Part shown: one piece after another, positions 12,875 through 24,205 of the stretch
Numbering within the stretch: the stretch's first letter is position 1
Layout: each line of letters starts with the position of its first letter
Assembly (NCBI GenBank): GCA_903902345.1
Contig: CAIUUR010000161.1
Location: forward strand, 1-53,637
Source of the DNA: an uncultured Geobacteraceae bacterium
Lineage (GTDB): Bacteria; Desulfobacterota; Desulfuromonadia; Geobacterales; CAIOGM01
Length of the DNA: 53,637 nucleotides
Reading direction: 5' to 3'
Program-made: the position numbers and the translations under genes
The notes under the pieces: model-generated
The model's database searches: none
What the model was told of the DNA's origin: nothing
The model's input: the letters and a program-made list of their open reading frames with translations, nothing else

Positions 12875-13882
12875 ATGAAAATTATTGATCTGCGGAGCGA
12901 TACGGTGACTCAGCCTACCGCTGCCATGCGCAGCGCCATGGCAGGGGCCGCCGTGGGAGATGATGTCTATGGCGAGGACCCGACGGTTAACCGTCTGGAG
13001 GCGCTGGGGGGAGAGCTGACCGGAAAGGAAGCGGCGCTCTTCGTTCCTTCGGGGACCATGGCTAATCTTTTGGCCATTATGAGCGTCTGCAGTCGGGGGG
13101 ATGAGTATATCTGCGGTCAGGAGGCCCACTGTTACCGGCTGGAGGGGGGGGGCGCTGCGGTCCTGGGGAGCGTCCAGCCCCAACCGTTGACGTTCCAGGC
13201 GGATGGCACTCTTGATTTGGGGCAGGTGGCGGAGTTCATCAAGCCTGACGATCCCCACTGCGCCCGTACCCGCCTCCTCTGCCTGGAAAATACCCAGGGG
13301 GGGAAGGTTCTTCCCCTTTCCTACCTGGCGCAGGCCGGGGAGCTCTGCCGGGAGCGGGGCCTTTCCCTTCATCTGGACGGGGCGCGGGTGGCCAACGCGG
13401 CGGTGGTGCTGGGGGTTCCCCTGGAGGAAGTCACCCGGCAGGTGGATTCGGTCTCGCTCTGTCTCTCCAAGGGGTTGGGCGCCCCTGCCGGCTCACTCCT
13501 GTGCGGCCGCAGCGAGGTCGTGGCAATCGCCCGTCGGTGGCGCAAGGTCCTGGGGGGGGGGATGCGTCAGGCCGGCGTTCTGGCTGCGGCCGGGATCGTG
13601 GCGTTGACCCGGGAGATGTCTCGGCTGGCAATGGATCACGAAAATGCCCGAATCCTGGCGGAGGGAGTGGCCGGTGTGGATGAGCTTGAGGTGACCTGGA
13701 GCTCCACCAATATGCTCTTTATCCGGGTGAGTGGGGGGAGGGAAGGAGAGTTGACGGCCTGGCTGAAGGCCAGGGGAATCCTGGTGGGTGGGCGGGGATC
13801 CCTTCGTCTGGTCACCCACCGGGACGTGGCGCGGGAGGATCTGGAGCGTGTGGTGAGGGAGGTGAAGGGGTTCTTTCGATGA
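12875..13882 (+). CDS. ltaE: Low-specificity L-threonine aldolase (PLP enzyme)
   Basis: The enzyme cleaves threonine or allo-threonine to glycine and acetaldehyde. The N-terminal [12 protein letters not shown] and the [12 protein letters not shown] block are family hallmarks. The PLP lysine lies in [18 protein letters not shown], and the aspartate that pairs with the PLP ring nitrogen is in [13 protein letters not shown]. The length is 335 residues. It closes the prmA-rsmE-ltaE operon. Its last 71 bases overlap the antisense 3' end of the fused glycosyltransferase gene. Confidence 0.9.
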
Positions 13883-16439
13883 CCGAGGTGAAGAAGTCAC
13901 ACTGTTGCCGGGTCATTTCCCGTGCCGTGAACGGCTCGAAGGCTTCCCAGTCGGTTTCGGGTTTGATGGGGAGTTTTTGGAGCAGCTGGGTGAGTACCGG
14001 TTGCAGACGTTCCGCCACACCGGTGGCCGTGTCATCATTACTGAATGTCACCATCTCCCCGGCGTGGGTATTCTTGAGAATCTCCACCACGCTGCTTGCC
14101 CGGTTGAAGACGGCCAGGATTGCTTTGCGCGCCTTGATATAGGGGTAGAGTTTGGAGGCGGTATAGCTGCTATCCGTGGAGCCCGGCATGAACAGCAGGT
14201 CGGCTTCTTGAAGTCTCTTGAGCGAGTGGAAATAGGGGAGACGGTCGGTCTGTTCGGTGACATAGCTGCCGATACCGATCCGCTCCGCCAGAGGTTGGAT
14301 GCTCTTGATCCCCTTTCCCGTCGCCGCATAGCTGGTGCCGATAAAGGTGAAACGAACCCGGGAGTAGAGCTCCGGATGGCTTTTGAGTCCCCTGCTGAAG
14401 GCGGTGAAGAGAGCCGTCACCGCCAGGGACATATCGCTTCCCCCTCTCCCTATGTAGAGGATATCGGTGACATCGTAGTTTGTCCGGATACCCGGCAGGG
14501 ATGTGGCTATCCGGAAATCATGGGGAAGCGCTCCGAAGGGGAGGGTGAGGCAGGGGGGAAGCGTCGACGCCCCATACCGTTCTCGGATCATCCTGATGTA
14601 GCCGGAAGATACGGTGACGATGCCGGAGCAGTGCGGAACGGTGCGTGCCTCCAGGAACTTGTTCAGACGATAGTCGAACCAGAATTTTTTCGGCCGCTTG
14701 CTCCGGGGGGTGGAGAGGTGAAAATCGTTGCGCCAGGGATCCTGAAGGTCTATGACGAAGGGGATGCCGAACTTTCGCTTCCAGTGGGGCCCCAAGGCCA
14801 CCGAGACGAAGACGGTGGTGCTGAAATAGATGAGATCAACCCGGTGTTCCTTCAGATAGCGATCAACGGCTTTCTTCAGGTGGAAAAGTGACCGTATCCC
14901 CAAATTGCCCACACCGACGGTCCGGGTCAGTGAGGCGGGAAGGGCCTTGACGTAGTGGATCTCCGTCCCCGGCGGCAGGCTCTCCATCAGCAGGCTATCC
15001 TTGTCACCTTCCACATACTCCGGTTCCACGGCGAAGACCACCGGATCCCAGCCGAACTCTCCAAAATAGGGGAGGCTCTGGCGCACCCGATGCATATCCG
15101 CGGCGTTTACCGGGGGGAAGTGAGGGGATATGATTAGTACCCGCCTATTCATGGGGAGAAGCGAATCGAAAAACGCGCACTGTCGGTGGACCATGTTGAC
15201 TGCAGAGTAGGGTTCAAACGCATGCCAATCGGTTTCCGGTTCACAGGGGAGTTTCCCCAGGAACATCGTCAGCAGGGGGAGAAGGCGATCGCCCAGGGGG
15301 GCTACTCCTTCTCCGGAAGTGAAAGTTACTACCTCGCCGGCGCGGGTACTCCGGACGATCTCGGCGACACTGCTACGTTCATTGCAGATGGCCATGATCG
15401 GTTTTTGGGACAGGATGTAGGGATAGAGCCTTGAGGAGGTGTATCCGTTATCCAGCGATCCCGGCAGGAGAAGAAGGTCCGCGTCCAGGAGCAGCCTCAG
15501 CGCGGAGAAGTAGGGCTCTCTTGCCGTCTGCTCGCGTACCAGATGCCCTATGCCGTACTCCGTTGCCAGCCGCTCCACCAACCCTGTTCCCGTGCCGGGA
15601 GGAGCGTAGCTGGTCCCCACGAAGAAAAAACGAAGCTTGGAAAAGAGCGATGGATTAACGACGAGCCCTTTTTTTACCGCAGCGAACAGGGCGCTGATGC
15701 TCTGGACCATGTTTGGTGCCACTGCCCCGATGCTGAGCACATTAACACGCCCGGGCTTTGCCGTAAACAGTAGATTCGTGATCTCGGGAGAAGCGGCAAC
15801 CTGGAAGTCAATTTCCAGGGCGCTGAAGGGGAGTGTCAGCATCGGCATGGTTGCGGTGGAGGGATAGCGCCGCCTGAGTTCCTCCGGGTACGCCGGGGAT
15901 ACGGAGATGATCCCGGAGGCCTTGGGAATGGTGGTTGCCTCCAGATATTTGTTGAGCCGGTAGTCGAACCAGAATTTTTTTGGCCGTTCCCGGAGGGGGG
16001 TCGACAGATGGAAATCGTTACGCCAGGGATCCTGGAGGTCGATGACAAAGGGGATGCCGAACGTACGCTTCCAGTGGGGGCCCAGGGCCATGGAGACGAA
16101 GACGGTGGTGCTGAAATAGATGAGATCCACCCGATGTTCGGTGAGATAGCGATCAACGGCCTTTTTCAGCTGCAGGTATGACCTGATTCCCAGGTTGCCG
16201 AGACCGATCTTCCGGGTCCAGTAGGTGGGGAGAGCCTTGACGCGGTGGATTTCCAATCCCGGCGGGAGGGTCTGCACCAGCAGGGGATCTCTGGTCCCCT
16301 CCACCTGCTCCGGTTCAACGGTGAAGAGCACCGGTTGCCAGCCGAACGTACCCAGGTAAGGGAGGCTCTGGCGCACCCTCTGCATATCCGGGGCGTTTAC
16401 GGGGGGGAAGTGTGGGGAGATGATGAGTATCTTTTTCAT
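13812..16439 (-). CDS. Glycosyltransferase with two fused tandem copies of one GT4-like module
   Basis: The 875-residue ORF consists of two homologous modules of about 430 residues joined without a stop. Copy 1 starts [19 protein letters not shown] and copy 2 starts [20 protein letters not shown], right after FFDSLLP. Both repeat [32 protein letters not shown] and [11 protein letters not shown]. This looks like an N-terminal GT-B (GT4-like) domain plus an acceptor domain, with a late segment on nucleotide-sugar binding ([19 protein letters not shown] / [20 protein letters not shown]). The second ATG looks like the start of a once separate gene. The last 20 residues ([20 protein letters not shown]) are encoded antisense to ltaE and look like read-through. 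The sugar and acceptor are unknown. Confidence 0.8.
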
Positions 16440-16461: not shown

Positions 16462-16728
16462 TCAATGACCGCTCCCCCGAGGTTCTCTGTTCATTGTTGA
16501 CGGACCCGGTGTGGCGCCTCCGCTCCTGAACTCGTTATTTTTTTTGTTTTCCGCCGTGTAAATTGCACATGATCTGAAATCGCCGCCGCACAAGGACAAT
16601 AGCTTGGTGATTTGTCTGCTGGAGACGTTCAGGCAATGGCATTCTCCGAACGGCTGCTCCAGGAACTGGCAGACGTCGCCTCCATGGTGAAGCCGTTTTT
16701 CCCCTGAATCGTCGATTGCTTTCTTCAT
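16462..16728 (-). CDS. Small Cys-rich protein, unknown function, behind a sigma-54 promoter
   Basis: This is the C-terminal 88 residues of the 16462-17124 ORF, read from the ATG at 16728 (MKKAIDDSGEK) with GGACGGGACC upstream. The core holds five cysteines at residues 20, 30, 32, 47 and 54 in the pattern C-x9-C-x-C-x14-C-x6-C (DVCQFLEQPFGECHCL and LLSLCGGDFRSCAIY). That spacing suggests a metal or Fe-S site, but this is inference. The C-terminal 25 residues are low complexity and may be recent. A consensus sigma-54 promoter lies about 60 bases upstream, and a sigma-54 activator gene sits next to it. I do not recognise a named family. Confidence 0.6.
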   Translation of the reverse strand: MKKAIDDSGEKRLHHGGDVCQFLEQPFGECHCLNVSSRQITKLLSLCGGDFRSCAIYTAENKKNNEFRSGGATPGPSTMNREPRGSGH

Positions 16729-16783
16729 GGGTCCCGTCCGTTGGTGAATCCGGAGGATTATTCTTCTCCGTGGGCACACATTA

Positions 16784-16799
16784 AGCAATAATAGTGCCA
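16784..16799 (-). promoter_or_regulatory. Sigma-54 (RpoN) promoter
   Basis: On the minus strand the sequence reads TGGCACTATTATTGCT, an exact match to the -24/-12 consensus TGGCAC-N5-TTGCW with GG and GC correctly spaced. It points toward the Cys-rich gene at 16728 and lies just downstream of the sigma-54 response regulator gene, its probable activator. Confidence 0.72.
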
Positions 16800-16903
16800 T
16801 AGTCGCAGCATCCTGTAAACGCTGAATTGTCGGTTCGTGGTGAACCGGAGGGGTCGGCGGAATGGGGAGTGGCGGGGAATAGTGATGGGCAAAATGCGGA
16901 GTG

Positions 16904-18247
16904 TTACAGTTTGTATTTGTCCAGCATCCGTTTGAACGTGCTGTAGTCCAGTTCCAGGAGGCGGGCTGCCTCCATTTTTCTTCCGTTTGTGGCGGCAAGG
17001 GCCTGCCGGATGGCCTGACGCTTGGACTCTTCCAGGGTCCGGGGAGCGCCGATGGCGACACTCCCCACGGCCTGATTGGCCAAGGCGGTGGCGAGTTCGT
17101 CAGCGGTAATGGACTCTTCCGCAAAGAGTACGGCCCGCTTCATGACGCTCTTCAATTCCCGCAGGTTGCCGGGCCAGGAATGCCGGTTCAACTGCGCCAC
17201 CGCCTCCGGGGGAAGCCGTGGAGGGACCCGTTGCAACTCCGACGCGATGCTGTTGAGAAATCTGCGGGCCAGCAGGGGGATGTCTTCCCCCCGCTCCCTC
17301 AGTGGCGGCAGGGTGATGACCAGATCGCTGAGGCGGTAATAGAGGTCTTCACGAAAGCTTCCTTGTCGGGCCTCCTCCAGGAGATCACGGTTACTGGCGG
17401 TGATGATCCGCACATCCACCTCAACCGGTTTGGTTCCCCCCACGGGGAGGAACCGTTTTTGTTCTACGGCATGAAGAATCTTGGCCTGGACCGCAGCGGT
17501 GGCGCAATCGATATCATCCAGAAAGAGGGTCCCGCCGTCGGCTTCCTCGAAGAGCCCCTTCCTGGCCCCCCCGGCTCCGGTGAATGCCCCCCGCACGTGA
17601 CCGAAGAGATGGCTCTCGGCCAGTGATTCCGGGAGGGCGCTGACGGTAACGGTCACCAGGGGATTTTGCCGGCGGGGGCTCAACCCGTGGATGAGTTCCG
17701 CCAGATAAGACTTGCCGACACCGGTCTCACCCTGGATGACCAGTGAATACGTGGTCTGTGCGATCCGCTGCGCCTGCCGGATGACCTCTTGCATGACCGG
17801 ACTCTCTCCCAACAGCAGCGCCAGGGACGACTGTTCGCGCTGTCGCATGATCTCCAGTTCCCGCCTCTGCAGGATGGGGGTGGCGGCTCTGGCGATAGTT
17901 TCCACGAGTTGGCGGCAGTCCAGCGGTTTGCGAACATAGGCGGAGACCCCCAGTTCGATGGCCTTGAGCAGGTAGGCGGTGTCGGTAAAGGCCGTGGTGA
18001 GGATCACCGGTGTTTCCGGGGAACGCTCTCGCACCGCTTGTGTCAGCGCGAGCCCATCCATGATCGGCATCCTGATATCGCTGACGACCAGATCGGGTTG
18101 CTCACGGGAAAAGAGCTCCACTCCCTCTTTTCCGTTGGCGGCGGAGAGCACCCGGGTAAAATGCATCTCCAGCACGATGCCGATCCTTTCGCGCAGATCC
18201 GGCTCATCTTCCACAAAGAGAATCGTGAGGGGTAACTTGTCAGCCAT
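16904..18247 (-). CDS. Sigma-54-dependent response regulator (NtrC family)
   Basis: The 447-residue protein has a receiver domain (1-120, phospho-acceptor Asp57 in LVVSDIRMPIMDG), an AAA+ sigma-54 activation domain and a Fis-type helix-turn-helix at about 405-447. The Walker A motif GETGVGKS is at 173-180 and the sigma-54-contacting loop GAFTGA at 220-225, with the Walker B segment GGTLFLDDID after it. All the residues needed to activate RpoN promoters are present. It overlaps the upstream kinase gene by 8 bases, so the two form an operon and a likely cognate pair. One candidate target is the sigma-54 promoter at 16784. Confidence 0.93.
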   Translation of the reverse strand: MADKLPLTILFVEDEPDLRERIGIVLEMHFTRVLSAANGKEGVELFSREQPDLVVSDIRMPIMDGLALTQAVRERSPETPVILTTAFTDTAYLLKAIELGVSAYVRKPLDCRQLVETIARAATPILQRRELEIMRQREQSSLALLLGESPVMQEVIRQAQRIAQTTYSLVIQGETGVGKSYLAELIHGLSPRRQNPLVTVTVSALPESLAESHLFGHVRGAFTGAGGARKGLFEEADGGTLFLDDIDCATAAVQAKILHAVEQKRFLPVGGTKPVEVDVRIITASNRDLLEEARQGSFREDLYYRLSDLVITLPPLRERGEDIPLLARRFLNSIASELQRVPPRLPPEAVAQLNRHSWPGNLRELKSVMKRAVLFAEESITADELATALANQAVGSVAIGAPRTLEESKRQAIRQALAATNGRKMEAARLLELDYSTFKRMLDKYKL

Positions 18248-20558
18248 GGGGAGCTCCTTCCGGGGAGAAATCGCGCGGCAGGAGCATCCGGAAGGTGGTC
18301 CCTTCCTGTCCGCTGGTGAACCCCAGCGTTCCCGCCATACTCTCCTGAATGATCAGCCTGCACATATAAAGTCCGATACCGGTTCCCTTCGATCCCGACT
18401 TGCTGGTGAAGTAGGGGTCGAAGACCTTGTCGCCATATTCGGGGGGGATGCCGCAGCCGTTGTCCCGCACCTGGATGACCACCGAGTCCGCGGAACCGGA
18501 GAAGGTGATCTCCACCAGGCCGTCGAACTGCGTGTCTCCCCGCTCTCTTCTTTCCATAATGGCGTCAAAGGAGTTGCTGACGAGGTTCAGGAGCGCTTGC
18601 TTGAATTCGTTCTGATATCCCCTGATCTCCAGGGCCTCTCCTTGCGAAACCACTGATATCCGGAGGGTGACCCCGGCGTGGGTGAACTGAGGGTGGATGA
18701 GAATCACCGCCTCGCGTCCCTTTTCAACGGCGTCGAAACGTTCCGTCACCTTGTCCTGCCGGAAGAAATTTCTGAAATCTTCAATGGTGTCGGACATATA
18801 GTAGAGCTGTTTTTGCGCATCCATTTCCGCTTTCAAAAGAAATGCGGTGTCGAGACACTCCTGTTCCCGGGCCATGCCGATGCTCTGAATGGTTGCCCCC
18901 AGGGTGGCCAGTGGTTGGCGCCACTGGTGGGCGATCGCCTCCAGCATCTCTCCCAGTGCAGCCAGGCGGGTATGGCGCGCCAGCAACCGTTCATGTCGCA
19001 GCCGCCGCTCGGTCTCATCCTCCACCCTTTTGGACAGATTCTGGTTCAGTTCGGTGAGGCGACGCGCCACCAGGGTTCGTTCGGTTATATCAAAGGTGGT
19101 GCTTCGGCTCGCCAGAAATGCTCCATCTGCGTCATAAATGGCGGAGGCGTTCAGAAGAACCGGAAAGAGAGTGCCATCCTTGCGGACCATGTCAAATTCC
19201 AAGTCGCGGATCATCCCCTCCTTCTTCAGCGTGGCGAAACTTTCCACATATGCCGCGACCCCTGCCGGAGTGATGATGGCGGTGAAATGGATCTTGCCTA
19301 CAATATCTTCCCGGGCATATCCCAGCCAGCTCAGTTCGGTGTCGTTGATCCGGACAATGGCGCCGTCTTTATCCAGGGAGTGATACCCGCAGGGGGCCTT
19401 GTTGTAGAGGTCGTCCAGTTCCCGTTCACTCTTCACCAGTTCCACCCCGCGCAGGCGGAGCTTTGCGGCCATCTGGTCGAAGGCCTCCCCCAATTCCCAC
19501 AGCTCCCCGCCGCTGACCAGTTCGGAGGCCCTGACCTCCAGCTCTCCGTCGGCCAGACGATGCGCCGCCTCCCGAAGCCTGTCGATGGGGCCCACAAAGC
19601 AGACGGTTCCCAGGCGTTGCACCAGGGCGAAGCTGAGGAGGAGGAAGGGGGAGAGGATTGCAATGTTGTTGATCAGGGCCTGCTTTGCCTTTTCCTGGGT
19701 CTCCCGGAGAGGAATGCTGGTGAGGATGGAGAGGTAGGGGAACTCTTCGCCCGTCAGGCGGAGCTTACGACTGGTGTAGAGGTACTTTTCTCCCGTGGGA
19801 TCAGAGTCAATGAAATTCCCCTCCTCACCGCACTCCTCCATCTGCCGGGCGAGTTGAGGGTTCACCCTTCTTCCGATGGCCTTCTGGGCGTCCAGGTTCC
19901 GGTCGATGATGAACCCGTTATGATCGATGATACTGTAGACCGCGCCTCCGGGGAGACCGATCTCCCCTAACGCCTGTTTCAGATTGCCGAAATTGAGGCT
20001 TACCAGGATGACATCCTTCACCTCGCCCGATGCGGCCAGCACGGGGTAGCCGAAGCCGATGGTGGCTTTTTTCGTGAATATGTCCAGGTTGTGCTCTCCG
20101 GAAGAAAACTGCCGGGAGCGGATGGCATGGAGAAATGATCGTCTCCCCCGGAGAGATTGTTTCTCCTTCAAGGGGAGAGCCGAAGCCCAGACTTCCCCCT
20201 CCTTGTCGGCAATGACGATATTGGCGTACTGGGGGGAGAGCCTGAGGATATTCCCCAGAATGGCGCCGGCGCCGGAGAGATCACGCACCCTTATCTCCGG
20301 GAGTTGAGAGAGCACGGTGGCGAGTTGCTTGGCGTCTCCGACAATATTGTACTGTTCCATGGCGATTCTGGCGGAGAGTTTGTTTCCCGCTGCGATCCCT
20401 TCCCGAATGGACTCTTTCTTCTTGTTCAGTCCCGAGAAAACGATCAGGAGAATGGCGGGGAAGGCCAAAAACAGTGCCATGAGCAGCAGATGGGTGCGCA
20501 GCGGCCAGGAAAGAAAGCGCCGCAGGGTGGGTGTTCCGTAGCCGCGCTGATGCTTCAT
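18240..20558 (-). CDS. Membrane sensor histidine kinase (Cache-HAMP-PAS-HisKA-HATPase)
   Basis: I place the start at 20558 (MKHQRGYG); the 110 extra track residues overlap the neighbouring gene in another frame. A membrane helix at about 22-42 is followed by a periplasmic Cache-type sensor to about 290, a second helix near 293-312, HAMP (GPIDRLREAAHRLADGE) and PAS (NKAPCGYHSLDKDG). The phospho-His lies in LEAIAHQWRQPLATLGA and the ATPase motifs are LLNLVSNSFDA, VRDNGCGIPPEY and SGSKGTGIGLYM. Such kinases in acetate oxidisers often sense organic acids, and the location between actP/DUF294 and the sigma-54 regulator supports that as inference. The Shine-Dalgarno is weak, which suggests coupling to the upstream DUF294 gene. 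Confidence 0.88.
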   Translation of the reverse strand: MKHQRGYGTPTLRRFLSWPLRTHLLLMALFLAFPAILLIVFSGLNKKKESIREGIAAGNKLSARIAMEQYNIVGDAKQLATVLSQLPEIRVRDLSGAGAILGNILRLSPQYANIVIADKEGEVWASALPLKEKQSLRGRRSFLHAIRSRQFSSGEHNLDIFTKKATIGFGYPVLAASGEVKDVILVSLNFGNLKQALGEIGLPGGAVYSIIDHNGFIIDRNLDAQKAIGRRVNPQLARQMEECGEEGNFIDSDPTGEKYLYTSRKLRLTGEEFPYLSILTSIPLRETQEKAKQALINNIAILSPFLLLSFALVQRLGTVCFVGPIDRLREAAHRLADGELEVRASELVSGGELWELGEAFDQMAAKLRLRGVELVKSERELDDLYNKAPCGYHSLDKDGAIVRINDTELSWLGYAREDIVGKIHFTAIITPAGVAAYVESFATLKKEGMIRDLEFDMVRKDGTLFPVLLNASAIYDADGAFLASRSTTFDITERTLVARRLTELNQNLSKRVEDETERRLRHERLLARHTRLAALGEMLEAIAHQWRQPLATLGATIQSIGMAREQECLDTAFLLKAEMDAQKQLYYMSDTIEDFRNFFRQDKVTERFDAVEKGREAVILIHPQFTHAGVTLRISVVSQGEALEIRGYQNEFKQALLNLVSNSFDAIMERRERGDTQFDGLVEITFSGSADSVVIQVRDNGCGIPPEYGDKVFDPYFTSKSGSKGTGIGLYMCRLIIQESMAGTLGFTSGQEGTTFRMLLPRDFSPEGAPHG

Positions 20559-20586: not shown

Positions 20587-21810
20587 TCAGACAATGGAAA
20601 AGTTGGTGTGAATCGTCCGCTGGAGCTCTTCGATGCGAAGCAGCGCCTGACGGATTTTCTCTCGCTCGTCGGTGGCGAGTTCGTAGGGATTGAGATAGTG
20701 GGACTCCTTCTGGATTCCCTTGATGACCCGGATTTGCAGGAGTATCCGGTGGCGGGTAAGAACTTCATACCCCTCGCAGAGGCTGGCGGCAAAGGATGGG
20801 GAGAAGCTTCGTTCCTGCTGGAGAAGTTCGATCCGCCGGATGGTGTTCGTGGCGGGGATTCCCTGATTGATGGCCAGTATCCGGACATTCATGATCAGCG
20901 GCGCCCAGGCGAGGAGTTTGAGGTTGAACTCTCCCTTGTGCTCTCCTGACCCCTCGGTCCAGAGCCGTTTGAGAAAACCGAGGGGGAGTCTCATCTCCGT
21001 GGCCGCCTTGGCCATCCCCCAGAGCGCCTGGAAATAATCCCGTTCCACCGACCGGATGGTTTCCACCAGCATCCCGGCCAGCTCCTGATCACCTGCCACG
21101 TACCGGGCGTCGGAGAGGACAATAAGGGACATCATGTTTTTGCCGAAATCTTCGGGGTCACATTCGTAGCGGACGATGCTGCTGAGCCGGCGTTGCCACT
21201 GTTGATAGGAGCCGCGCCAGGTGGGATTGGACGGCATCATGTCGCCGGTGCATTTAGCAAATCCGATCTCTGCCAGTCGCTCCACCAGGAGGAGGGAGAA
21301 GTGAGCAAACCAGACGTCGGCGTCGTCCCCTCCGTCGTCTCCGTAGACGATGAGGTGATCCTGGTCGGTGATGAGGGTCTGCTCGTCACGACCGTCGCTT
21401 CCGGTACTGAGCAGGGCGAAGGTAACGGGAGGAGGACCCTCGCCGTTTTCCAGGAGCTCATCCTGAACCAGTTTCAGCGCACGCCGTGCCAGGAGGTCTC
21501 GGTATTCGGTACAGTTGTGATGGAGGGTAAAAACGGCGTGGACCTTCAGGAATTCCGCCATCTCCAACTCATTGAGGAGCCGATGGAGTTCGCCCAGACG
21601 GGCGTAGTCGCGGCAGGTGGGGATCTCCTGCAGCAGTCGCCCGCGTTGGTGGGAAAACCCTTCTATCTGATGGATCTCGCCATCCAGTTGGTCCCGAAAA
21701 GCGGTCAGAAACCGGAGGATTTCGTCGCTTTCCAGGTAGCGGGTTCGGTCCAGCAACTGTTTGAGGAGAGCGGTGGCGACCTGCTCTGGGGGGGAGTTGG
21801 CGACGGTCAC
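20587..21810 (-). CDS. DUF294 putative nucleotidyltransferase (GlnD-like)
   Basis: The 407-residue protein has the nucleotidyltransferase signature STGSDGRDEQTLITDQDHLIVY (shown here in parts: GSDGRDEQTL and TDQDHLI), as in the GlnD and DUF294 families, with a DUF294 C-terminal substrate-binding domain. Unlike many relatives it lacks CBS and cNMP domains before the catalytic part. In other bacteria related genes lie next to acetate symporters, and here it lies between actP and the histidine kinase. A role in acetate-linked signalling is likely but unproven. Its start at 21810 (ATG or GTG reading MTVANSPPEQ) lies downstream of the actP terminator. Confidence 0.8.
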   Translation of the reverse strand: MTVANSPPEQVATALLKQLLDRTRYLESDEILRFLTAFRDQLDGEIHQIEGFSHQRGRLLQEIPTCRDYARLGELHRLLNELEMAEFLKVHAVFTLHHNCTEYRDLLARRALKLVQDELLENGEGPPPVTFALLSTGSDGRDEQTLITDQDHLIVYGDDGGDDADVWFAHFSLLLVERLAEIGFAKCTGDMMPSNPTWRGSYQQWQRRLSSIVRYECDPEDFGKNMMSLIVLSDARYVAGDQELAGMLVETIRSVERDYFQALWGMAKAATEMRLPLGFLKRLWTEGSGEHKGEFNLKLLAWAPLIMNVRILAINQGIPATNTIRRIELLQQERSFSPSFAASLCEGYEVLTRHRILLQIRVIKGIQKESHYLNPYELATDEREKIRQALLRIEELQRTIHTNFSIV

Positions 21811-21835
21811 GGGATTCCTGCCTTACTCATGAGCA

Positions 21836-21866
21836 AAACGGGGAAGGCAATCCGCCTTCCCCGTTT
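21836..21866 (-). terminator. Intrinsic terminator after actP
   Basis: AAACGGGGAAGGC (21836-21848) and GCCTTCCCCGTTT (21854-21866) form a 13-bp stem with a 5-nt loop, followed on the minus strand by TTTTG. It lies 20 bases past the actP stop and before the DUF294 gene. Confidence 0.75.
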
Positions 21867-21887
21867 CCATGGTGACTAACGACCGTA

Positions 21888-23876
21888 TCAGTGGTCGATG
21901 GCCTTGGCCATGCCGATGCCGGTATTCTGGCGGACATAGACTTCGTCGAACATATCCTCGGAACGTTTGCTGGGGAAGGCCAAGGCTGCGAGAATAGCGG
22001 CCAGGAAGCCCAGCGGAATGGAGATGATCCCCGGGTTTTTCAGCGTCAGGATGGGAGCGTCCAGGCCAAGGATGGACTTGCCGTCCTTGTTCAGCACGTC
22101 GGCTTTTGCCTTATCCAGGGCTTTCAGATCCTTGGCGTCAAGGGTTGCGCCGGGAGCCAGTGCGGCCATCTTTTTTTCCATGGCGTGGATGATCTTTTCA
22201 CCCTTGGCCGCTTCCAGCTTGGGATAGGTCATGTTGGGGGAGACCATAACCAGACCGATGGAGGCGATGGTTCCCACCACCAGACCGGCGATAACTCCGG
22301 CGGTGTTGAACTTCTTCCAGAAGAGGGAGAGCACTACCACCGGAAGGTTCCCCGAGGAAGCTACGGCAAAGGCCAGGGCCACCAGGTGGGCAACGTTTTG
22401 TTTCTCGGCGGCGATGCCGATGATGATCCCCACTATCCCCACGACCAGTGAGGTGATCCGGGCTGCCATGACCTGCTCATGCTGGTCGGCGTGGCCGTCC
22501 TTGATGACGTTGACATAGATGTCGTGGGCGATGGCTGCCGACGCAGCCAGAACCAGACCGGAAACAACGGCCAGGATGGTGGCAAAGGCGACGGAGCAGA
22601 GGAAGGCAAGGAAGATGTCACCCAGTACCGGAGAGATGTCTGCGCCCAACTGTTGTGCCAGGAGGAGGGTGGCCATGTTGCCACCGGCATCGACCTGGGT
22701 GATTCCCTGGGGGGTGACGTGGATGGCGGCGCCGAAGCCCAGCAGGGTGGTCAGGACGTAGAACATCCCGATGATCCACATGGCAATGATGACTGACTTA
22801 CGGGCAGCCTGGGCCGTGGGGACGGTGAAGAAGCGCATGAGGATGTGCGGCATTCCCGCCGTGCCGAAAACCAATGCCATTCCCAGGGAGATCTGGTCAA
22901 GAGGATTTTTGAGATAAAGACCCGGTTCAAGGAAACGCTGTCCGGCATCCACGCCGGTGAGGAGGTCGGCGCCGGTCTTGCCGTCTTTCAGCAGCATCTT
23001 GGTGACATGGTCCTGGATGTCAGGGCTGTTGACGATCATTTCGAAGAAGCGGAGCGGGTTGAAGCCGGCCTTGGCCATGACCAGGGTGGAAAGGAGGAAG
23101 GCGCCGGACATGAGGAGGCCGGCCTTGATGATCTGAACCCACGTGGTGGCGGTCATGCCGCCGAAGACGACGTACCCAACCATCAGGATGCCGACTCCTA
23201 CGATGGCGGTCCGGTAGGGGACCCCTACCAACAGAGCCATCAGCTTCCCTGCTCCCACCATCTGGGCGGTGAGGTAGAAGGTGGTGACGGACACTGTGGC
23301 GATGGCGGCTACGGCCCGGACCGGTTTCGGATCGGTGCGGAAAGAGAGGATATCTCCCATGGTGTACTTGCCGGCGTTGCGGCACGGTTCGGCCACGATG
23401 AGGAGCACGGTGATGTAGGCCACCAGCCACCCCACGGAGTACATGAACCCGTCATAGCCGTAAAGCGAGATCATCCCGGAAATTCCCAGGAAAGAGGCCG
23501 CAGACATATAATCGCCGGCGATGGCCCAACCATTCTGGGCGCCGGTGATCCCCCCGCCGGCTGCGTAGAAGTCCGCCGCGGTCTTGTTCTTGCTGGCGGC
23601 CCTGATGACGACGGCAAGAGTAATGCCGATGATGAAGGCGAACATGGTGAGGGTGATGGCCTTGTTGGCCTTCAGTTCCTTCTTTACGGTGAGCTTGGGC
23701 GCCGGCGCGGCGGCTGCCGGTTCTGCCGCGACCGCAGCAGGGGCGGCCATGGCCGGCGCGGAGGCTGCAGTGGCGTCAGTCGGTGCGGTTGGTGTTTTCT
23801 GGGGCTCTTCGGCAAAGGCGGCCGTAGCGACGGTGAGTGCCAGCGAAGCGGCGATGATGAACTTGTTAAATGTCAT
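21888..23876 (-). CDS. actP: Cation/acetate symporter ActP (sodium:solute symporter family)
   Basis: ActP imports acetate and related short-chain carboxylates with Na+ or H+ across the inner membrane. The start at 23876 (MTFNKFIIAA) has a strong AAAGGAGG and gives 662 residues; the 79 upstream residues in the track overlap the DUF485 gene. An N-terminal signal-like segment is followed by an Ala/Pro-rich linker. Then come many membrane helices with SSS family motifs, including AGGGITGAQNGWAIAGDYMSAASFLG and the long GAGKLMALLVGVPYRTAIVG region. A soluble insertion lies near EKIIHAMEKKMAAL. The 17-base spacing behind the DUF485 gene fits the yjcH-actP pair. Geobacter acetate permeases have this arrangement. 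Confidence 0.92.
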   Translation of the reverse strand: MTFNKFIIAASLALTVATAAFAEEPQKTPTAPTDATAASAPAMAAPAAVAAEPAAAAPAPKLTVKKELKANKAITLTMFAFIIGITLAVVIRAASKNKTAADFYAAGGGITGAQNGWAIAGDYMSAASFLGISGMISLYGYDGFMYSVGWLVAYITVLLIVAEPCRNAGKYTMGDILSFRTDPKPVRAVAAIATVSVTTFYLTAQMVGAGKLMALLVGVPYRTAIVGVGILMVGYVVFGGMTATTWVQIIKAGLLMSGAFLLSTLVMAKAGFNPLRFFEMIVNSPDIQDHVTKMLLKDGKTGADLLTGVDAGQRFLEPGLYLKNPLDQISLGMALVFGTAGMPHILMRFFTVPTAQAARKSVIIAMWIIGMFYVLTTLLGFGAAIHVTPQGITQVDAGGNMATLLLAQQLGADISPVLGDIFLAFLCSVAFATILAVVSGLVLAASAAIAHDIYVNVIKDGHADQHEQVMAARITSLVVGIVGIIIGIAAEKQNVAHLVALAFAVASSGNLPVVVLSLFWKKFNTAGVIAGLVVGTIASIGLVMVSPNMTYPKLEAAKGEKIIHAMEKKMAALAPGATLDAKDLKALDKAKADVLNKDGKSILGLDAPILTLKNPGIISIPLGFLAAILAALAFPSKRSEDMFDEVYVRQNTGIGMAKAIDH

Positions 23877-23893
23877 GTGAAATCCTCCTTTAC

Positions 23894-24205
23894 CTAGAGA
23901 TGAAGTTCGTCGATCAGGTTTCTGGTCATCCGATCGAAATCCTTGTTGGCCACATGGGCATAGTAATGGGCCAGACCCCAGGAGACGAAGAACTGGGAAA
24001 GGGCGAAGACGTAACCGAAGTTGATGACGCCGATGATCTTGATCTTGAACAAGCCCGGGGCATAGGCGGCGCCGATGGGGAGGAGGAAGTAGTAAAGGGT
24101 GGAGAAGATCCACCAGCCGAACAGAAATGCGCTCTTCTTGTGGTGGAGTTCGACGAACTTCGGGTTTCTGGCGATTGCGCCCCAGTCATACTTTTTTTCT
24201 GCCAT
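23894..24205 (-). CDS. DUF485 membrane protein, ActP partner (YjcH-like)
   Basis: This 103-residue protein has two predicted membrane helices (FLFGWWIFSTLYYFLLPIGA and GYVFALSQFFVSWGLAHYYA, each near 20 residues), the hallmark of DUF485. The family is nearly always encoded directly before an acetate or solute symporter. Its function is not settled; an accessory or regulatory subunit is likely. The ATG at 24205 has AAGGAG upstream. It is cotranscribed with actP, 17 bases apart. Confidence 0.88.
   Translation of the reverse strand: MAEKKYDWGAIARNPKFVELHHKKSAFLFGWWIFSTLYYFLLPIGAAYAPGLFKIKIIGVINFGYVFALSQFFVSWGLAHYYAHVANKDFDRMTRNLIDELHL

Follow-up and report, generated by a model that had tools for sequence, protein, structure and literature searches.

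Many sigma-54 regulators in Geobacter-like bacteria are still without assigned targets, and the locus described here raises the question of what one of them, together with its sensor kinase, switches on. The window, a stretch of 53,637 nt belonging to contig C161 of an uncultured Geobacteraceae bacterium, carries on its minus strand, in this order, genes for a kinase and an NtrC-type regulator, an intergenic region with the putative promoter TGGCACTATTATTGCT, a small cysteine-rich ORF (hereafter the Cys gene) and a double glycosyltransferase-4-like gene. A model working from the letters of the DNA (the sequence-only reading) had proposed that this unlisted frame is a gene under sigma-54 control, located beside its activator and encoding a stimulus-driven, metal- or redox-active protein. 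Through a sigma-54 promoter, the adjoining sensor-regulator pair appears to switch on the Cys gene as its main target, and units of these three genes are found again in Geobacter-like bacteria and in some more distant relatives.

The Cys gene and its relatives

The Cys gene (16462..16728, minus strand) runs from an ATG at 16728 to a stop codon ending at 16462 and encodes 88 residues. Its cysteines lie at positions 20, 30, 32, 47 and 54, that is, C-x9-C-x-C-x14-C-x6-C, which bears out the frame and spacing of the sequence-only reading. No significant family was found in Pfam or NCBIfam for the Cys protein and its family, a PDB search with the same set returned no solved relative, and the literature searched yielded no paper describing the family. 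AlphaFold, run on 10 family sequences, gave a pLDDT of 49 and an unusable model. The N-terminus, MKKAIDDSGEKRLHHGGDVC, is polar, and an export signal was not evident in the protein, as judged by eye and not by a predictor.

A search of 58 relatives with the window protein alone detected the pattern in 14 genomes; leaving aside the window's own copy, identities were 26-45%. A tighter pattern scan (A3) retrieved nine named loci, from Geobacter, Geomonas, Geomesophilobacter and Desulfuromonadales, and by these named loci the relatives of the window genome include Geobacter-like bacteria. Two cultured relatives, Geomonas sp. Red32 and Geomesophilobacter sediminis, are among the carriers of the Cys gene. 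A profile search, named as a check by the sequence-only reading, was run with 15 members and detected homologues that keep the frame and the Cys spacing in 53 of 112 genomes and 15 of 25 genera within the order, with up to nine copies per genome. In the family alignment, C20, C30, C47 and C54 are invariant and C32 and P26 nearly invariant; the usual pattern, C-x-[FY]-x3-PF-x-[ED]-C-[YH]-C...C-x6-C-x-[IV]-Y, is retained by members at 20-40% identity. In a wider sample of 394 genomes across the phylum, 14 had a match, and at all seven out-of-order loci of this first family a kinase and a sigma-54 regulator precede the Cys gene.

A sister family (CPFYGKNDDYCDVGC..., CPFYGKNDDYCDVGCGYISPHDV...) has the spacing C-x9-C-x3-C-x14-C-x6-C and is present, nearly always in single copy, in 87 of 109 genomes of the order; the window's own genome gave no match to it at the threshold used. 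A sigma-54 site was detected at 27 of 30 sister-family loci (L205-L234), mostly 27-44 nt before the ATG. At several sister-family loci examined (L110-L113, L126, L127, L138), an MFS carrier is encoded nearby or fused.

Promoter, regulator and predicted enhancer sites

The predicted -24/-12 sigma-54 promoter TGGCACTATTATTGCT (16784..16799, minus strand, with a predicted +1 near 16773) is an exact consensus match, as had been claimed, and lies 55 nt from the ATG, close to the "about 60 bases" given earlier. It is the sole match in the window when one mismatch is allowed. Because chance alone would give about 1.3 such matches (one mismatch or none) in the window, it is the exactness of the site and its oriented intergenic position that carry weight. 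The 4.9-Mb genome as a whole contains ten exact -24/-12 matches, compared with two for a reversed control.

Across loci, the stretch up to 200 nt from the start was scored for GG-N10-GC sites that match the consensus at 9 or more of 11 positions. Such sites were found at 35 of 61 loci (six sister-family loci included) versus 2% of random stretches from the same loci. With the sister family left out, they were present at 23 of 25 loci where a GAFTGA regulator adjoins the Cys gene versus 8 of 30 where none does (Fisher p=1e-6, for sequences that are not independent, their kinship being uncorrected). Conservation of the -24/-12 motif upstream of homologues, another check named beforehand, is observed where the regulator adjoins. 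Both grounds for refutation given in the sequence-only reading that comparison can address, homologues lacking the frame and Cys spacing and an unconserved motif, therefore fall away. At L077, one of the two site-less exceptions, a 9/11 site overlaps the chosen start codon. L101 has a regulator without GAFTGA, and its sigma-54 site is gone too; there is likewise no site at L083, L096 and L098, where the gene next to the Cys gene ends in a LuxR-type domain. At 22 in-order copies both the sigma-54 site and an adjacent GAFTGA regulator are missing, so the Cys protein is not tied everywhere to sigma-54 regulation.

The out-of-order regulators are of a different lineage, and the one that was read (L130) has a receiver-PAS-AAA-HTH arrangement with GAFTGA. 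Each of the seven out-of-order loci carries [TC]GGCAY-N5-TTG[AT], located 14-107 nt upstream of a possible start, versus 3% in the control; this pattern was set after inspection of those loci and has an unusual -12 element (TTGA or TTGT, not TTGC). Requiring GC at -12 had missed these promoters.

In the window, the regulator gene (16904..18247, minus strand) encodes an NtrC-family response regulator with a receiver, an AAA+ domain and a Fis-type HTH (PF00072, PF00158, PF02954), and GAFTGA is intact at residues 220-225 (window 17590-17573). The kinase gene (18240..20501, minus strand) has domain matches to dCache, HAMP, PAS and HATPase; its ORF extends to 20888 from an earlier ATG, and the start near 20501 is our choice. 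The kinase H-box, IAHQWRQPL, is common to the group. The presence of an intact NtrC-type activator and its sensor kinase upstream of the Cys gene was thereby confirmed. Elsewhere, the best matches of the window regulator (64-70%, then 46-49% identity) adjoin Cys genes; most other NtrC-type regulators reach at most 41%, and three at 48-51% have no downstream Cys gene. In a maximum-likelihood tree, all 24 Cys-linked regulators fall in one clade (100/100) with only two others, whereas 15 further NtrC-type regulators encoded in these genomes lie outside it; the label (Cys-linked or not) changes 3 times on this tree versus 13 in shuffles. The sensor domains of the 24 kinases are varied (dCache in 11, NMT1-like in 5, 7TM in one), and therefore the inputs would vary while the output stays constant.

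Two paralogous regulators were also noted. One, at L159, has no Cys gene, and a 9/11 sigma-54 site there lies in front of a gene for a small, lipoprotein-like coiled-coil protein; the other, at L169 on contig C337 of the window's genome, is followed by a dyad, GGTATCCATTCCGGATA, and a gene for a PEP-CTERM-like protein.

Two candidate enhancer sites resembling TCATTTTGCCCACC lie between the regulator gene and the promoter, both on the minus strand. The predicted proximal site, CCATTCCGCCGACC (16852..16865, 10/14 positions, centre about -86), has a shuffle control of 0.4%, and the predicted distal site, GCATTTTGCCCATC (16884..16897, 12/14 positions, centre about -118), one of 4e-5; both together at those positions occurred in 0 of 200,000 shuffles. 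In six loci (the window and five related ones), TCATTTTGCCCACC-like sites are centred at -118 to -120 and at -86 to -87, and these positions are fixed while the promoter-to-ATG distance varies from 55 to 148 nt. In a genome-wide search with one mismatch allowed, two relatives, G066 and G060, had the tandem pair at the Cys locus and nowhere else; the single-locus result applies to these two genomes, the pattern being too strict for the weaker sites of the window genome. Dyads of another kind, for example GCTATCTATTTTAGATACC, are seen at loci belonging to the other regulator clade. An inverted repeat at 16831-16847, CGGTTCACCACGAACCG, was considered as an enhancer and dropped, as it had no counterpart in the related loci compared.

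At L056, L057, L060, L061, L062, L069, L070, L073, L079, L080 and L108, exactly 14 nt separate the end of the sigma-54 site from the ATG, and at three further loci 11-12 nt. No Shine-Dalgarno sequence was seen by eye in the 14-nt gaps. With the usual sigma-54 spacing, leaders of about 1-5 nt would result, and leaderless sigma-54 transcripts are predicted for the 14-nt loci. The short-leader loci whose regulators are in the tree belong to a second regulator clade, not to that of the window.

Altogether, the regulatory architecture proposed for the Cys gene is well supported, and the gene, its promoter, the predicted enhancer sites and the linkage to kinase and regulator are each supported by comparison between genomes. 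The unlisted frame as a real and conserved gene, the core of the earlier proposal, has strong support from its homologues, its promoter and the neighbouring activator.

Neighbouring genes and the role of the protein

The glycosyltransferase gene (13812..16439, minus strand), which encodes two fused glycosyltransferase-4-like copies in 875 aa, begins 22 nt downstream of the Cys gene and may be a co-transcribed neighbour; it is probably outside the module, since it is not conserved beside homologues. Genes downstream of Cys genes are often convergent or unrelated, which points to the Cys gene itself as the constant product. Upstream of the kinase (20587-24205, minus strand), genes for nucleotidyltransferase-like, sodium/solute symporter-like and small DUF485-like membrane proteins were recognized by eye, and the dCache kinase might be linked to acetate-type transport. 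At L062, multihaem c-type cytochrome genes lie downstream of the Cys gene, and parts of this gene set recur near L060, L061, L068 and L069. At L066, L072, L081 and L103, a Cys gene without a sigma-54 site follows an ORF of 142-143 aa by 11-23 nt; the reading of this ORF as a hemerythrin comes from a residue pattern, for which Pfam gave no confirmation. A C..YC..CARY-type motif had two matches in G066, a loose resemblance.

The Cys domain also occurs in fusions. It shares one open frame with HisKA (E=5e-13) and an MFS carrier at L127, and is fused to an MFS carrier at L126, to a Gpr1/Fun34/YaaH carrier at L128 and to a HisKA_3-like protein, in which the expected His reads Lys, at L096; each of these frames comes from a single assembly, in which sequencing errors are possible. 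With HisKA, a HisKA_3-like protein and carriers as its fusion partners, the Cys domain is associated with signalling and transport.

On these grounds, a circuit can be proposed in which the membrane kinase would phosphorylate the NtrC-type regulator, which would then bind two sites at about -119 and -86 and drive sigma-54 RNA polymerase at the TGGCAC-N5-TTGCT promoter. The small cytoplasmic five-cysteine protein would then be made, and its cysteines might bind metal (zinc or Fe-S) or undergo thiol chemistry. It might feed back on its kinase, as ZraP does toward ZraSR, or alternatively adjust neighbouring signalling or transport proteins, presumably with no role as an enzyme. The reading in which the Cys protein is made as the dedicated output of the two-component system next to it, as a sigma-54-driven cytoplasmic protein with metal or thiol chemistry and feedback on the kinase or an action on neighbouring proteins, is about as likely as not. 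Within it, the protein is probably a cytoplasmic metal- or redox-binding modulator, whose metal binding and target are both presumed. Of the two functional terms in the sequence-only reading, "metal- or redox-active" is plausible in view of the four invariant and one near-invariant cysteines, and "stimulus-driven" expression is what we infer from the kinase and regulator.

The protein could instead be an effector that does not touch its kinase, such as a metal or redox buffer or a chaperone of metalloproteins (e.g. multihaem cytochromes). This is rather unlikely, but the five-cysteine site would suit it, as would the carriers adjoining the sister family and the position of the Cys gene upstream of the conserved gene set at L060, L061, L062, L068 and L069, with its multihaem c-type cytochromes in L062. 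However, cytochromes are abundant in Geobacter-like genomes anyway, downstream genes differ widely between loci whereas the kinase and regulator are constant, and the HisKA-type fusions point to signalling. A role as modulator of signalling is therefore favoured, because the sensor inputs vary and the domain is fused to HisKA-type domains and carriers. It is improbable that the Cys ORF acts mainly as a leader driving downstream genes, its peptide being dispensable: the 22-nt spacing in the window and the close same-strand gene at several copies are compatible with this, but the amino-acid pattern is kept at such low identity, and several Cys genes (e.g. at L059, L086 and L099) are followed by a gene that runs the other way. 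A random ORF beside a random -24/-12 match, as might be thought of a short frame without a Pfam or NCBIfam match and for which a plain-protein pattern scan of named genomes found zero relatives, is refuted, with next to no probability left to it: comparison across many genera shows a conserved frame with conserved cysteines, and conservation of the promoter, the enhancer sites and the neighbours as well.

More broadly, and tentatively, the modulator may belong to an undescribed superfamily of small five-cysteine proteins in which, for the order and some relatives, sigma-54 two-component systems would routinely end, one member being exchangeable for another. Coupled to varied sensors and several regulator lineages, it would respond to metal or redox state in the cytoplasm and connect to kinases or, for the sister family, also to carboxylate carriers; in one regulator clade its messages may be nearly leaderless (promoter 11-16 nt before the ATG, without Shine-Dalgarno). 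If one whole clade of regulators mainly targets a small Cys protein, inputs, regulator sites and output become testable together. A protein missing from family libraries would then be a candidate link between signalling and metal/redox physiology in metal-reducing bacteria.

Comparison with known systems

The RpoN regulon of Geobacter sulfurreducens, according to the main text of its description, has the promoter consensus TTGGCACGGTTTTTGCT and includes RpoN-dependent operons headed by hypothetical genes, for example GSU2750-dcuB (PMC2725144). The present locus resembles it in promoter consensus and in having a hypothetical gene at the head of an operon. That main text does not describe the Cys family, and neither "cysteine" nor "small" occurs in it. 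According to the same paper, no rpoN deletion was obtainable in G. sulfurreducens. In the PrsK/PrsR PEP-CTERM system, a sigma-54 regulator is associated with an upstream site and a -24/-12 site before single-gene targets (PMC1569441). The window regulator has some likeness to PrsR, scoring 315 bits on TIGR02915, under the cut-off of 502.6, but the PrsK/PrsR targets are PEP-CTERM proteins whereas the window target is a presumably cytoplasmic Cys protein.

ZraSR/ZraP, which responds to zinc and envelope stress in E. coli, likewise combines a kinase, an NtrC-family regulator, a sigma-54 promoter and one adjacent small-protein gene. ZraR is described as having zraP as its only target (PMC8249747), and ZraP is called a repressor of ZraSR in the title of a reference cited in PMC7657598. 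ZraP is a metal-binding accessory protein, and metal binding is presumed for the Cys protein. However, no sequence relation between the two was found, the Cys protein matching no Pfam or NCBIfam family. ZraP is periplasmic whereas the Cys protein has no evident signal sequence, and the Cys gene lies downstream of its regulator in the same direction, not divergently as in ZraSR/ZraP. The locus is best read as an arrangement like that of ZraSR/ZraP, built around a protein that is not a ZraP homologue.
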